IMG/VR virus record: IMGVR_UViG_3300020213_001054
Span: 1 to 23,049 of that record
DNA from: a virus
Reading direction: 5' to 3' (one strand)
DNA length: 23,049 nt
Below, piece by piece: positions 2,842 to 22,025 of the stretch. Position 1 is the first letter of the stretch. Every line of letters begins with the position of its first letter. The notes under the pieces are model-generated. The model did no database searches and was not told where the DNA came from. It saw only the letters and a list, made by a program, of their open reading frames with translations. The position numbers were made by a program, and so were the translations under genes.

Positions 2842-2950
2842 GTTTGAATAATCAACCATCTCACTTTCACCGTGAGACTTTCAATGGATTGATTACTACT
2901 GGCCTTGCGGCAAGGCTCCTATCCCCTATTCCTGCGAACTCAGAGATTAC
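2842..2950 (-). ncRNA. Candidate omega-RNA / right-end structure of the TnpB gene
   Basis: TnpB proteins are guided by an RNA made from the 3' end of their own gene and the flanking right end. On the minus strand the last about 50 nt of the TnpB-like gene and the bases after it contain two perfect hairpins: GCCTTG-CCG-CAAGGC (plus positions 2902-2916) and TCTCAC-GGTGAAA-GTGAGA (2859-2877), the second spanning the stop codon. They are followed by GGTTGATTATTCAAAC (2857-2842), a plausible right-end border. A guide would then begin near 2841 and read leftwards. The limits are estimates and the RNA was not tested against any covariance model. Confidence 0.4.
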
Positions 2951-4042
2951 TTTTCGTCCTATGTTGAGAGAACCATTAACGTCAGCATTCACAGCAAATC
3001 CATCCTTCGTAACGTACAAACCACGTTTCTTTCTCTTTCCAGAAAATTCAGGTACAGGCTCTCCGTACTTGGGTAATGGATCATTATCATAAAAACTGGC
3101 TTTACTTGTGTACGCTTCTTCCGTGAATGTTACATCAATTCCTGCAATATCTGCTTTGTACTTGATTTTTTGCAAAAGTAAATATATTGGCACACAGCAA
3201 AATGCTTGGTTTGTCTTTTTGCCTAAATTGATATTTTGTTTCCATCCATTATTTTTGCCAATAACAATATGACCAATACCTTCCTTTACACATAAGTCAA
3301 TAATGAATTTACTTACATGATGGAAATAGTTTTCAAGCCTCCAATACCTTTTACGCAAACGATTCTTGCAAGGACGTTTATTGTACCATTGATTGATGGA
3401 CTTGACGATGCGACCATTGATCAGTATCGGACGGTTCTGATCGTAAGTTATCGCACACAAATTATTTAATCCAATATCAATCGTACAAATCTTGTTTTTG
3501 TTAAACTTTATCTTTTCACTGTTTTCTTTCTTTTCGTATTGGACGTCAATTACGAATCCAAACGCTTTTGGCGTAATGACAACTTGTTTGTATCCTTCTT
3601 TGAATGGAACAGAAAAACAATCGTTGTTCGCAGTGAGTGTGGTTAATGGTTTTTTGCCTTGTCCTCTTTTAATTGTGTGTTTGGAAAAAATTACTTGAGC
3701 CATTTTATTTTTGTAATTAGGCGGTTTTGGACATTTGATGAACTTACTTGAGTCTTTCTTGTAAGCAGTTAATGCTTTCAAAAAATTACTCCAATCTATA
3801 AGACATTTTCGTATTGTTTGTGTAGCAGTTTTAGTATTGCCAAATTGCTGAAAACAATCAAGTAGTCTTGTTTCTTTCACAAGTATACTAATGTTAGGAA
3901 TTTGTCGATATTTTACGTGTTGTTGATTGAACCATGCTTGACGCATCAAATAATTACATCGATTGTATAATTCTTTGCTCAGAGAGCAAAGACGAGTGAT
4001 TTCAGCATTGCCATTTGTGTAGTGTCGTTCGGATAATATCAT
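2867..4042 (-). CDS. tnpB: TnpB-family (IS605 OrfB-like) RNA-guided nuclease homologue
   Basis: A 391-aa protein from the ATG at 4042. A TTG six bases earlier would overlap the upstream stop codon. TnpB uses a transposon-end RNA to cut matching DNA with a RuvC domain, and also helps IS200/IS605 elements persist. RuvC-I is present (CTIDIGLNNL, D189), as is RuvC-III (NADVNGSLNI, D354). At RuvC-II, where most TnpBs have I-V-x-E-x-L, this one has HIVIGKNNGWKQ with glycine at 262. The nearest conserved acids are E308 and E309 (TFTEEAYTSK). The usual C-x-x-C...C-x-x-C zinc finger is missing (TSKASFYDND). I recall a TnpB subfamily with the same IGKN-GWKQ-N and EE-YTSK pattern, so this may be a clade feature, either nuclease-dead or with a moved glutamate. 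No TnpA transposase is nearby. Confidence 0.85.
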   Translation of the reverse strand: MILSERHYTNGNAEITRLCSLSKELYNRCNYLMRQAWFNQQHVKYRQIPNISILVKETRLLDCFQQFGNTKTATQTIRKCLIDWSNFLKALTAYKKDSSKFIKCPKPPNYKNKMAQVIFSKHTIKRGQGKKPLTTLTANNDCFSVPFKEGYKQVVITPKAFGFVIDVQYEKKENSEKIKFNKNKICTIDIGLNNLCAITYDQNRPILINGRIVKSINQWYNKRPCKNRLRKRYWRLENYFHHVSKFIIDLCVKEGIGHIVIGKNNGWKQNINLGKKTNQAFCCVPIYLLLQKIKYKADIAGIDVTFTEEAYTSKASFYDNDPLPKYGEPVPEFSGKRKKRGLYVTKDGFAVNADVNGSLNIGRKVISEFAGIGDRSLAARPVVINPLKVSR

Positions 4043-4044
4043 TT

Positions 4045-4920
4045 TCAATGGTTTTTGCCTAGTCTAAATTTGCGATGACCTTGGACATCTTGAAATTTGC
4101 GAATCAATTCATATGTTGGTCGATTATATTCACGTTCTACATCTTCATTGTCTTCAACTGGTTCTCCAAGAACTCGTTCTAAGAACTTAAGCCATTGACG
4201 ACCGCGCCAACCTGCGTATTCACTCCACTTCATTGAATGTAGTGCTTGAAGAACTATTTGATTGAATTTATAACTACCTTCCATAACCCAGTGTGCAAGA
4301 TCAGTATATTGTATCATATCTTGAAGCATGTTTACAACAGCATGTTCTACGTCATCCATTGATGCCGTTGTAAACCTTCTTTTTGGCTGATTTGCTTCGG
4401 GCGAAATACTAGGTATTTTACCTTTATTAACCTTGGCAATGAACTGCTTCATTGGTGTTTCTGGAGGGATAGAATTTGACAAATCGAAATTACTGACTGG
4501 GTAAATCACGCCAGTGATGTATTTTGCAGGTATTGGAACAGGTGAAAATGCTTGAAGTCTAGTAGTTGCATCAAATGTTTCTTTGTCATCTGGGTCAACT
4601 TGCAATATTGAAAATGGAACTTCAGCAACAAACATAAGATGATCACCGCCATGTTTAGTTACGGCAGCATGACTATACATATTCGTTCTGCCTGGATCAA
4701 AAGAGAAAAAGACCCCAGGAGTTACCTTGCTCCAGTTCATCCGTGATTTATCGAATGTGAATCCGTTATTGACAATCTCCCAAAACCATTTTGTACTTGT
4801 CCCGTGATAAACTAACGCTTTTTTCTTACGTCCAACTATTGATTTTTGAAAATCTGGATCAAATGGGTTATCAACCACACTCATATCCATCGCCATCTCT
4901 AACCATTTCCTGAACTCCAT
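4045..4920 (-). CDS. ADP-ribosyltransferase-like protein with capsid-targeting-like N-terminus
   Basis: A 291-aa protein. Residues 35-110 (ALVYHGTSTKWFWEIVNNGF, then GVFFSFDPGRTNMYS and FVAEVPF) follow the pattern of ADP-ribosyltransferase folds (KptA/PARP-like): a YHGTS strand, a helix ending in N-G, a G-V-F/Y-F-S strand and an alanine/tyrosine helix. The fold call is moderate, because I cannot place the catalytic glutamate. The protein begins MEFRKWLEMA, which resembles T4 internal-head capsid-targeting peptides (for example MKTYQEFIAE). T4 packages the ADP-ribosyltransferase Alt and injects it to modify host RNA polymerase; a similar role here is inference. The C-terminal 120 residues are unassigned. 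The start codon is 2 nt from the palindromic element CTATATATAG, with no Shine-Dalgarno sequence. Confidence 0.55.
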   Translation of the reverse strand: MEFRKWLEMAMDMSVVDNPFDPDFQKSIVGRKKKALVYHGTSTKWFWEIVNNGFTFDKSRMNWSKVTPGVFFSFDPGRTNMYSHAAVTKHGGDHLMFVAEVPFSILQVDPDDKETFDATTRLQAFSPVPIPAKYITGVIYPVSNFDLSNSIPPETPMKQFIAKVNKGKIPSISPEANQPKRRFTTASMDDVEHAVVNMLQDMIQYTDLAHWVMEGSYKFNQIVLQALHSMKWSEYAGWRGRQWLKFLERVLGEPVEDNEDVEREYNRPTYELIRKFQDVQGHRKFRLGKNH

Positions 4921-15314: not shown

Positions 15315-15941
15315 ATGGCATCTTGTTCAGTTAATGCAGCTTTTCCAGAATCAGTTGCTCGGATGGAGGGTGGTGGAATTGTCAAAGCCGGAATGGGCAT
15401 GGGCAAACTAGGTGGTGCGGACCTTGTAATGAAACGAAAATTTCGTTGGGTGTTCCAAATAACCACCATTTGTGCTGGAGACGTTCCAGCATACTTTGTG
15501 AAAACAGCCAGCCGTCCTGATCTCAGCATCGAAGAAACTGAAATCAACTTCTTGAATGCAAAAACCTGGATTCCAGGCAAAGCATCTTGGGAAGCAATTA
15601 CAATTACATACTATGATGTTGCGACTGGTGATAACATCAACTTGTGGAATTGGCTAGCTTCAGTTTATGATTTTACAAACTCTGATTGTTTGCATATGAA
15701 TTCACAACGTAGTGGATATGCAGGCACAGCTAATTTGTATTTGTTGGACGGTTGTGGAAATCCACTAGAACATTGGACTCTAGACGATGTGTGGCCAACT
15801 TCAATCAAATTCGGAGAACTAGATTATTCTAGCTCTGATACAGTTGATATTGAACTCACTCTTCGATATAGCCAGGTAAAGTACAACATGCTTTGTCCAA
15901 AACTGGAAGTCAAACCTTGTCCATGCAAGGCTTGCGTATAA
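15315..15941 (+). CDS. Tail tube protein, first copy (gp19-like)
   Basis: A 208-aa tail tube subunit of the T4 gp19 type, whose hexamers stack to form the inner tube through which DNA passes. Seen are the strand K-R-K-F-R-W-V-F-Q-I (near residues 37-46) and the C-terminal block L-L-D-G-C-G-N-P-L-E-H-W-T-L-D-D-V-W-P (142-160) followed by G-E-L-D-Y-S-S-S-D-T-V and L-T-L-R-Y-S. The cysteine-rich end (CPKLEVKPCPCKACV) is unusual for a tube protein. It has a strong ribosome site (AAGGAG, 10 nt before ATG) and a CTAATATAA variant of the promoter element at the sheath stop. It is followed by a terminator, then by a paralogous tube gene. Confidence 0.92.
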   Translation: MASCSVNAAFPESVARMEGGGIVKAGMGMGKLGGADLVMKRKFRWVFQITTICAGDVPAYFVKTASRPDLSIEETEINFLNAKTWIPGKASWEAITITYYDVATGDNINLWNWLASVYDFTNSDCLHMNSQRSGYAGTANLYLLDGCGNPLEHWTLDDVWPTSIKFGELDYSSSDTVDIELTLRYSQVKYNMLCPKLEVKPCPCKACV

Positions 15942-15958
15942 TACGCAATTTCAATTCA

Positions 15959-15985
15959 AAACACCAAGACTTTGTCTTGGTGTTT
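15959..15985 (+). terminator. Rho-independent terminator between the two tube genes
   Basis: A perfect 12-bp stem (AAACACCAAGAC with GTCTTGGTGTTT) and a TTT loop, followed by GTTTT. It lies 17 nt after the first tube stop. The stem is long and strong. It separates the sheath/tube 1 transcript from the second tube gene, which has its own promoter-like site. Confidence 0.85.
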
Positions 15986-15998
15986 GTTTTCGATACAA

Positions 15999-16010
15999 CT
16001 ATATAATAAT
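15999..16010 (+). promoter_or_regulatory. Late-promoter-like element CTATATAATAAT
   Basis: CTATATAATAAT directly abuts ATG 16011 and follows the terminator by 13 nt. No Shine-Dalgarno sequence lies between. It is a variant of the CTATATTAG / CTATATATAG elements at other gene starts, and overlaps a T4-like TATATAAT box. Confidence 0.5.
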
Positions 16011-16604
16011 ATGGCAATATCAAGTAAAGACGATTCGTGTATGGGACTTCGGTTTGGATTCGAGAATCCAACCAATAGCCCAAAACGAAAATTCCGTTGG
16101 CTTTTTCAAATAGATGATATTAGCGCAAAAAACTCTAAAGCGAGTGAAGCAAAAGCGTTACCACACCGACGTGGAGCAAGACCTAGTCTGTCATGGAAAG
16201 AAATGGAATGTCAACACATGAATGAAACAATCTGGTTTCCAATGAAACCAGATTGGAAACCAGTTCAACTTCATTTATACGACATTCATTGTAACTCAAA
16301 TCCTGTTTTTGATTGGATTCGTTATAGTGAAAGAAATACTGGCGGCGAAGGCATATACGACCCGCAAAATGGAGTTTGGAATCCTATTCTTGATGCCGAA
16401 CTAAAACGAGAAGCCACAATAAAAATGCTAGATGGATGCGGTAACGTTCTTGAAACTTGGACTTTGGAAGGATGCTATCCCCAAAACATTGAATGGGGAG
16501 AGCTTGATATGGACAACGTTGATCTCGTTACAGTAGACTTAACCTTGCGTTATGATCGCGCATTTATTGTTCCTGGTGGTTTTGGTGGTGGTGGAGATTT
16601 CTAA
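16011..16604 (+). CDS. Tail tube protein, second copy (gp19-like paralogue)
   Basis: A 197-aa paralogue of the preceding tube protein. It shares K-R-K-F-R-W-L-F-Q-I (near residues 25-34), L-D-G-C-G-N-V-L-E-T-W-T-L-E-G-C-Y-P (142-159) and G-E-L-D-M-D-N-V-D...L-T-L-R-Y. It differs by a glycine-rich end (PGGFGGGGDF) instead of cysteines, and by an insert around S-E-R-N-T-G-G-E-G-I-Y-D-P (near 106-118). I start at ATG 16011, just after the promoter element. An upstream in-frame TTG at 15972 would lie inside the terminator. The gene's stop is directly next to the stop of the convergent gene. It may form part of the tube, its tip or its head-proximal end; this cannot be told from sequence. Confidence 0.88.
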   Translation: MAISSKDDSCMGLRFGFENPTNSPKRKFRWLFQIDDISAKNSKASEAKALPHRRGARPSLSWKEMECQHMNETIWFPMKPDWKPVQLHLYDIHCNSNPVFDWIRYSERNTGGEGIYDPQNGVWNPILDAELKREATIKMLDGCGNVLETWTLEGCYPQNIEWGELDMDNVDLVTVDLTLRYDRAFIVPGGFGGGGDF

Positions 16605-20106: not shown

Positions 20107-21114
20107 ATGGATTCAGAAACTTTCCGTCCCAGGAAGCCAGCCGTCGAAGAAACCAAGTCTACAGATACGGGGCTTCCACCCAATATAGACAAGCTTCCTG
20201 GCCCAGTTCAACACGCACTTAGACAAAATGCCGAACGAATGTCTGCACGTAAGACCGAAGATGAAACTCCATCACAAGGTCCACGCCTCGCTTTCACTGG
20301 CAATGCCAAGCTTGATGAACTGTTGGCTGGAATCAAAGAACAAGTCTACAAATACGAGGAGCAAACCCTTCCTTCTCGCGGCAAGTTCTATGATGGGACT
20401 GTCGCTCCTTCCAACGGAGTAATTCACATTCGTTGCATGACGGGCGAAGAAGAACAAATCCTGGCAACTCCAAGATACATCAAAAAAGGTCAAGCCATCA
20501 ATATGATCTTCAAGAACTGTGTTCGGGAATCAATCATCCCAGAAAAGTTGTTGACAATTGATAGGACTTGGTTGTTGATCTTCCTGCGTGGTATTAGTTA
20601 TGGACCAGATTACGAAGTAGAAGTTCGTTGTACAGAATGTGCAACTAAATTCCAAAGCAATCTTGACCTGGACAGTTTACTTGTCAACCCATGCCAGAAC
20701 GATTTTGGACCAGAGAACCTTACGGACGTTCTTCCAAAGTCTGGATATAAGTTCTCATATCGCTTGCCAACTGGCAAAGATGAAAACATGATTCAAGAGC
20801 ATCGTGACCAAAGAATTCGTAAAAATACGGATGGTGGGTCTGATGACACTTGGACGTATCGTGCTTCTCTGCTGATTTCTGATGTTGAAGGACTAACAGA
20901 CAAGGATGCTTTACAAGCGTTGATTAGTAGATTGCCAATTCAGGATGTTGCATATATCCGAACTGCATTGAATGATCCACCATTTGGCGTTGATACCAAG
21001 GTGTCTATTGCGTGCCCTAATTGTTCGGAAGGTTTTCAAGTTGAGATGCCGATGGACACAAATTTTTTCTTCCCGAAGGCAAAGAGGGTCAAACACACCC
21101 TTCCCTCGTCCTGA
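20107..21114 (+). CDS. gp26-like baseplate hub / hub-assembly protein
   Basis: A 335-aa protein of the T4 baseplate family (gp26-like). The core is L-P-S-R-G-K-F-Y-D-G (residues 88-97), I-H-I-R-C-M-T-G-E-E-E-Q-I-L-A (106-120), L-L-T-I-D-R-T-W-L-L-I-F-L-R-G-I-S-Y-G (148-166), then C175-T-E-C178 and C303-P-N-C306, which probably bind a metal ion together. T4 gp26 helps form the central baseplate hub; at 208 aa it is shorter and lacks the N-terminal 80-residue extension seen here. A strong ribosome site (AAAGGAG) lies 8 nt before ATG. Codons 318-321 contain a slippery run leading to a long -1 frame, so this stop product is probably one of two. Its zero-frame tail after the slip is only 15 residues. 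Confidence 0.75.
   Translation: MDSETFRPRKPAVEETKSTDTGLPPNIDKLPGPVQHALRQNAERMSARKTEDETPSQGPRLAFTGNAKLDELLAGIKEQVYKYEEQTLPSRGKFYDGTVAPSNGVIHIRCMTGEEEQILATPRYIKKGQAINMIFKNCVRESIIPEKLLTIDRTWLLIFLRGISYGPDYEVEVRCTECATKFQSNLDLDSLLVNPCQNDFGPENLTDVLPKSGYKFSYRLPTGKDENMIQEHRDQRIRKNTDGGSDDTWTYRASLLISDVEGLTDKDALQALISRLPIQDVAYIRTALNDPPFGVDTKVSIACPNCSEGFQVEMPMDTNFFFPKAKRVKHTLPSS
21060..21069 (+). other. Putative programmed -1 frameshift site
   Basis: AAATTTTTTC in the frame ACA-AAT-TTT-TTC contains two overlapping canonical X-XXY-YYZ heptamers, A-AAT-TTT and T-TTT-TTC. Both would move ribosomes from the gp26-like frame into the -1 frame. The zero-frame stop comes 45 nt later; the -1 frame is open from 21030 to 21281. 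I did not identify a clear stimulatory stem-loop downstream. Confidence 0.6.
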
Positions 21115-21281
21115 AAAAGCATCTGCTTGAGGAAGAATTTTTCTATTGGTACTATTACCATAGTCCACCTTGGGAGTCACGACGATTACCAATTTATGAA
21201 CGCAAATGGTTCATAAGTCGTTTCGTAGAGCAAAAAGAAAAAGAGAACCAAGAATTAGAAAGAGCAAGAAAGAAAAAGTAA
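21066..21281 (+). CDS. -1 frameshift extension of the gp26-like protein
   Basis: The 71 codons read after a -1 shift at 21060-21069, giving a fusion of 391 aa with the gp26-like protein. The frame has no ATG, GTG or TTG codon between its upstream stop (TGA ending 21047) and its end, so it can hardly be translated on its own; only CTG codons are present. Its sequence looks like a real protein: L-L-E-E-E-F-F-Y-W-Y-Y-Y, then L-P-I-Y-E-R-K-W-F-I-S-R-F-V-E-Q-K-E-K-E and a coiled-coil end. I recall small 'P-x-Y-E-R-x-x-F-I' proteins encoded next to gp26 in other T4-like phages. The stop lies 3 nt before the next start, so translation could couple. Confidence 0.65.
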   Translation, partial: FLPEGKEGQTHPSLVLKKHLLEEEFFYWYYYHSPPWESRRLPIYERKWFISRFVEQKEKENQELERARKKK

Positions 21282-21284
21282 AAT

Positions 21285-22025
21285 ATGACTAAAGAACGAA
21301 ATCAAAATGCCGCCATTGGCGATACCTTGAAATTAAGGTTAATAGCTTTCAATTCTAATCTTCAGGTTGACGTAGATTCTATTGACAGGATTGAGATTTA
21401 CAAACTTGATCCTGCTAATTGCTCTGAATCTTGTAAAGATGGAAGAACTTTAGTTGAAACTATATCAGGTACGTACATAAATGCAGATTGTACTGGTTCT
21501 TACTCATACGATTTAGTGTTAGAAGGACCAAAATACACAATCGGTAAATATATCGATATTTGGTACGTAAGCCCAAGAAATGGTGATCCATTACTTGCCA
21601 TCGATAACAGATTTGAAGTATTTTCTGATCTGTGGTATTTCAGCACGATCCCTGCCGTCTACGGATTTGACTTTCAATTCCAACCTAATATGATACGTCA
21701 AGGCAGCAAAAAATGGCTGACGATCAAGATTACACCCAACATTCCACGTGCAACAGAACTTGAACGATATTATACCAATCTGGCAATATCATCAAATCTA
21801 TTGATCAACATTGAAACGAATTGTTCGCCATGCCCACCAGCAGACTCCGGACTCATCGTTGAAGACGCCGTAGTTTGTGTCCGAGACAAGGTATTTGGAT
21901 TTTATTTCTTGGATTTGAGTGAAGACGGACTTGATCTTCCATGCGGAATTTATAACGTGTGGTTCAAACTCGCTTATGCAAATAGTCTTGAAATTTCTCC
22001 TAAAATGCAATTTCAAATTTTCTAG
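21285..22025 (+). CDS. Probable virion structural protein, unknown
   Basis: A 246-aa beta-rich protein without a family I can name. It has two parts that may be similar Ig/jelly-roll-like domains: residues about 10-115 (L-K-L-R-L-I-A-F, I-D-R-I-E-I-Y-K-L-D, ending G-K-Y-I-D-I-W-Y-V) and about 120-246 (K-W-L-T-I-K-I, ending G-I-Y-N-V-W-F-K-L-A-Y). Each half ends in a 'G-x-Y-x-x-x-W' strand, which suggests duplication. Cysteine pairs occur in both (C-S-E-S-C; C-S-P-C). The position behind the hub gene and the beta content suggest a tail or neck part; this is inference. No Shine-Dalgarno sequence is seen, but the frameshift extension ends 3 nt upstream. Confidence 0.6.
   Translation: MTKERNQNAAIGDTLKLRLIAFNSNLQVDVDSIDRIEIYKLDPANCSESCKDGRTLVETISGTYINADCTGSYSYDLVLEGPKYTIGKYIDIWYVSPRNGDPLLAIDNRFEVFSDLWYFSTIPAVYGFDFQFQPNMIRQGSKKWLTIKITPNIPRATELERYYTNLAISSNLLINIETNCSPCPPADSGLIVEDAVVCVRDKVFGFYFLDLSEDGLDLPCGIYNVWFKLAYANSLEISPKMQFQIF

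Follow-up and report, generated by a model that had tools for sequence, protein, structure and literature searches.

The gp26-like gene discussed here raises the question of whether its product ends at the annotated stop codon, or whether some ribosomes change frame just before it and append a second coding region that lies beyond. The gene lies in IMG/VR virus record IMGVR_UViG_3300020213_001054, of which a stretch of 23 kb (positions 1 to 23,049), referred to throughout as the window, was analyzed. An earlier note on this DNA had proposed a programmed −1 frameshift giving products of 335 and 391 aa. The positions of the features concerned are collected in Table 1.

The gp26-like gene and the open frame at its 3′ end

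The 335-aa ORF matches Pfam family PF12322 (T4_baseplate; E 4.8e-18, above the curated cut-off) and phrog_150, a baseplate hub family (E 2.8e-22), and homologues of its product are present in SP-15, jumbo phages and cyanophages. Close to the end of the gene the zero frame reads GAC ACA AAT TTT TTC TTC CCG, with the TGA stop codon following later. The −1 frame is open from position 21045 to a TAA at 21279–21281 and contains no ATG, GTG or TTG, a statement of the earlier note that is borne out by the sequence. A slip on T_TTT_TTC would join 321 residues of the gp26-like protein to 70 residues encoded in the −1 frame, giving the predicted total of 391.

The structure model of the gp26-like protein (pLDDT 85.6) matches predicted gp26-type proteins in BFVD, with that of SP-15 at the top (E 4.2e-21); no relative with a solved structure was found, and in a Foldseek search with this model the HK97 chaperone 2ob9 appeared at rank 9 with an E-value of 2.4, which is not significant. 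The extension is confidently modeled as three helices (pLDDT 88), and a PDB fold search with that model returned no useful match. Extensions of two clades match Pfam DUF6760, a family of unknown function, weakly (20/39 and 10/21 members, best E about 2e-5), and the window's own extension does not match it.

Taken alone, the open −1 frame of the window is modest evidence and could be a product of chance. The 70-codon frame stays open in 102 of 5000 dinucleotide shuffles (2%), and is both open and free of start codons in 11 of 5000 (0.2%); in-frame heptamers of the form X_XXY_YYZ occur 13 times in the plus-strand genes of the window. What exceeds chance, on comparison of the sequences, is the conservation of the arrangement across relatives.

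Table 1. Positions of the predicted features of the gp26-like locus and its surroundings in the window.
Feature	Position	Strand	Remarks
Tandem tail tube paralogues	15315–15941 and 15972–16604		
Putative gp26-like tail assembly chaperone, short form, 335 aa	20107..21114	+	Stop TGA 21112–21114; PF12322, phrog_150
Candidate slippery heptamer T_TTT_TTC	21063..21069	+	In frame in 40/40 clade and 68/68 cyanophage-type sequences; wobble invariant in 39 clade sequences
12-base block T TTT TTC TTC CC	21063–21074	+	Invariant in clade; contains the heptamer
−1 frame extension, helical, 70 codons + TAA	21069..21281	+	Conserved protein in 39 aligned relatives; predicted long form 391 aa
246-aa protein of unknown function	21285..22025	+	Directly downstream of extension; tblastn 40/40 clade representatives

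Conservation of the shifted frame and of the slippery site

A tblastn search with the gp26-like protein matched 52 records, and the extension used as a query matched only beside gp26 in one huge uncultured phage. Seventeen homologous loci in phages other than T4 were inspected, and in every one an ORF in a shifted frame overlaps the 3′ end of gp26: the overlap is −1 in LR756511, Atu_ph07, CM1, 121Q, XacN1, Paride, S-SSM7, S-RIM8, PC-Liy1 and SD25, and +1 in SP-15, LIS04, GXN1, LR756508, Mel-JY01, immuto and RM378. Many of the −1 set carry T_TTT_TTC, with T_TTT_TTT in its place in CM1 and XacN1 and GTT TTT CGC in SD25. A large sample of 240 loci was obtained from three scans of viral contigs with clade alignments. 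The window protein used alone retrieved nothing from viral contigs owing to its poor peptide patterns, a viral scan with the XacN1/CM1 alignment gave no matches, and bacterial genome contigs scanned with two clade alignments yielded no relatives.

The sample has several features that bear on the nature of the extension. First, the −1 frame is open for 57–66 codons beyond the gp26 stop in 80 of 80 window-clade loci and for 57–64 codons in 79 of 79 untruncated cyanophage-type loci, in which the control +1 frame closes after 2–21 codons. Second, T_TTT_TTC is in frame in all 108 sequences that remain after dereplication at 90% identity, and TTT accounts for only 52–72% of Phe codons elsewhere in the gene. 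Third, every base of the 12-base block, wobble positions included, is invariant in 39 window-clade sequences, and the wobble bases upstream of it vary. Finally, past the gp26 stop the −1 frame of the window clade has an excess of third-position differences, with N/S about 0.11 of neutral; the extension is under purifying selection as a protein in that frame. None of these counts carries a phylogenetic correction, but clade members share only about 48–59% protein identity with the window.

Of the two overlapping heptamers in the earlier note, T_TTT_TTC stands and A_AAT_TTT does not. The latter was rejected as a slip site for its lack of conservation in the clade, 5 of 40 members having GGT or AGT ahead of TTT TTC, which breaks it.

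Homopolymer runs are prone to errors, and gp26 and the extension could in principle be one continuous ORF interrupted by a sequencing or assembly error in the T run, as the earlier note had itself allowed. A one-base error is excluded because the same heptamer is present in 108 of 108 relatives. Moreover, the identical heptamer and frame relation recur at 80 of 80 window-clade loci and in isolates that different groups sequenced, and the zero-frame stop is present every time; the probability of this explanation is negligible.

The distribution of start codons bears on a different alternative, namely that the extension is a separate small gene with its own start, translated by re-initiation or coupling at the gp26 stop, as annotated for the cyanophage 'gp51'. 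The earlier note had named a conserved separate start among homologues as one finding that would count against frameshifting, and such a start is not common to the window's clade: 15 of 41 sequences, the window included, lack ATG, GTG and TTG from the slip to the conserved core, and the −1 frame of Paride likewise has none at all. In other relatives starts are plentiful – in many an ATG lies close to the gp26 stop or overlaps it (121Q, a KVP40-like Vibrio phage and SD25, for instance, have TAATG), many cyanophages have one at codon 3, and databases annotate the small gene separately – and since a start codon is close to the slip in 62 of 67 cyanophage-type genes, a separate small protein is also possible there. 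However, conservation reaches upstream to the FF codons, past the annotated start of S-RIM8, which sits within the conserved stretch and is probably misplaced, and a separate gene leaves the invariant heptamer unexplained. We therefore regard a separate gene as a very improbable account of the extension.

Possible stimulators of the slip were also compared. Cyanophage-type genes have a GGAG-type sequence 11–12 nt upstream of the slip in 59 of 68 cases, against a background of 12%, and downstream RNA structure with a mean z of −1.87 versus −0.37 in controls. In the window's clade neither an enriched upstream Shine-Dalgarno sequence (8 of 40 vs 14%) nor strong downstream structure (mean z −0.56; about −0.8 in the window) is evident.

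The arrangement is taken as real because it is kept in every close relative examined, and a programmed −1 frameshift at T_TTT_TTC is very likely; that slipping occurs, and its efficiency, are matters that we infer from the sequences. The proposal of the earlier note, with its products of 335 and 391 aa, is strongly supported, since across many divergent relatives the site does not vary and selection acts on the extension at the protein level.

Other frame relations and the tie to T4 gp51

The direction of the shift is not the same in all tail assembly chaperones, that of lambda shifting −1 and that of SPP1 +1. Among the gp26-type loci, a third clade, of the Microcystis phage Mel-JY01 / Flavobacterium phage immuto type, has a +1 frame open for 61–108 codons in 75 of 76 untruncated loci, and TTT TTT TGG CC(T/A) or a near variant is kept in nearly all of 70 sequences (TTT TTT TGG CCT exactly in 54 of 70). 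The extensions of the window clade and of this +1 clade are homologous (hhalign 97%, E 3.5e-11).

Two further observations concern the +1 clades. One member of the third clade (L223, near 3253) has TTC TTC TGG, with its +1 frame closed and the homologous extension open in −1, which is either a real switch or a base error. The SP-15 clade keeps a +1 frame extension preceded by an NCC codon and then CGA or AGA, which suggests that ribosomes slip +1 where an Arg codon is read slowly.

T4 gp26 and gp51 both belong to PF12322, with two copies in T4 and exactly one in each of the 15 other genomes that have a match; Mel-JY01 and immuto are below Pfam detection for this family. At the level of sequence, T4 gp51 holds the corresponding C-terminal extension in frame. 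A profile of the cyanophage extensions matches the gp51 C-terminus (E 5.7e-05 with the full-length protein among about 1,200 ORFs; hhalign E 5.3e-05), T4 gp26 is absent from the matches of this profile, and phrog_634, 'baseplate hub assembly catalyst', matches 24 of 24 cyanophage extensions. The window-clade and cyanophage extension profiles gave no direct match to each other, and what connects the window to gp51 is therefore the homology of their gp26 parts together with position and layout, making the putative tie of its extension to T4 gp51 an indirect one.

We consider it rather probable that a two-form chaperone design is near-universal in the gp26 superfamily among the phages sampled, and that it is achieved by differing means: −1 frameshifting at T_TTT_TTC in the window clade, cyanophages and several jumbo phages, +1 frameshifting near TTT_TGG in the Flavobacterium/Microcystis-type phages, +1 frameshifting near NCC before an Arg codon in the SP-15 clade, and gene duplication in T4. 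The direction of the shift would then have changed in evolution with the extension kept. Possibly new are the +1 variants and how widely the arrangement is conserved. For a large group of phages the annotation is corrected: what is entered behind gp26 as a small 'gp51' or 'hypothetical protein' would often be the end that frameshifting adds to the gp26 product. The need of T4 for both gp26 and gp51 may be explained by the two being duplicated stand-ins for a single frameshifted gene, and the +1 and −1 variants form a natural series for asking how a required product ratio survives a changing recoding signal.

A predicted two-form chaperone and its known counterparts

Very probably the gp26-like gene encodes a tail assembly chaperone in short and long forms of the gp26/gp51 type; the chaperone roles of both forms are ones that we infer by analogy. 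Most ribosomes would stop at 21112 and release the short form. Some would slip back one base on T_TTT_TTC, with two Phe-tRNAs re-pairing on TTT TTT, and would pass the gp26 stop and complete the long form. If the two forms work as gpG and gpGT do in lambda, the tape measure or a hub intermediate would be coated by the short form, the helical C-terminal extension of the long form would bind tail tube or hub subunits in assembly, and neither form would need to remain in the virion.

The gene has the usual chaperone position in SP-15, LIS04, immuto and Mel-JY01, with the tail tube on one side and, on the other, the tape measure or the long ORF that occupies its place. In the window the tail tubes are 3.5 kb upstream of the gp26-like gene, and the gene for the 246-aa protein comes next. 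The phage record also contains a transposase-like ORF at 2867–4048 on the minus strand (phrog_506, 5.9e-24).

The position of the gene in several relatives and the two-form design fit tail assembly chaperones better than a further alternative, in which frameshifting is real and the products are structural hub proteins made in a fixed ratio. According to PMC3004832, some studies have claimed that T4 gp26 is part of the hub, but that review also counts gp26 and gp51 among the hub assembly chaperones, with gp51 required yet absent from the particle. Structural hub proteins are thus unlikely, and 'tail assembly chaperone' is a better name than the 'hub protein' of the earlier note.

Contrary to the earlier note, which knew of no frameshifting in gp26-type genes, poly-T signals are known in T4-like phages, according to a paper citing Vladimirov et al. 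2022. As relayed by PMC10885494 and PMC12846349, that study had already assigned the T4-like chaperones and their poly-T signals, and PMC10885494 says of it that in some T4-like phages a short gene and a long, fused one take the place of frameshifting. Since poly-T signals are reported in T4-like chaperone genes, the window's arrangement is, on these second-hand accounts, of a known kind.

The known systems closest to it are the following. For the chaperone locus of phage Adele and the Vandenendeviridae (PMC12846349) a comparative argument of the same sort has been made, from a −1 frame that is conserved and a poly-T motif that does not vary at the end of the short-form gene; the motif there is GTTTTT. 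Lambda gpG/gpGT and other frameshifted chaperones (Levin 1993; Xu 2004) resemble the window in having an N-terminus common to two products and a −1 frameshift near the 3′ end, and the lambda gene is beside the tube and tape measure, as in several relatives of the window gene; no sequence homology was detected between the window gene and lambda G, and the window's candidate slippery site is T_TTT_TTC. The cyanophage 'gp51' of phrog_634 is, as in the window, a small protein corresponding to a −1 extension of gp26, but unlike the reading proposed here it is annotated as a separate gene; in S-SSM7 and S-RIM8 the product annotated 'gp51 baseplate hub assembly catalyst' is this −1 frame extension. 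T4 gp26/gp51 (Vladimirov, Gautam and Davidson 2022, as cited in the papers above) share the Pfam family, the short form and C-terminally extended long form and, in T4-like genes, the poly-T −1 signals. In T4, however, two paralogous genes give the two forms, whereas the window would make both from one gene with a slippery site, and its phage falls within a divergent large-phage clade whose related clades shift +1.
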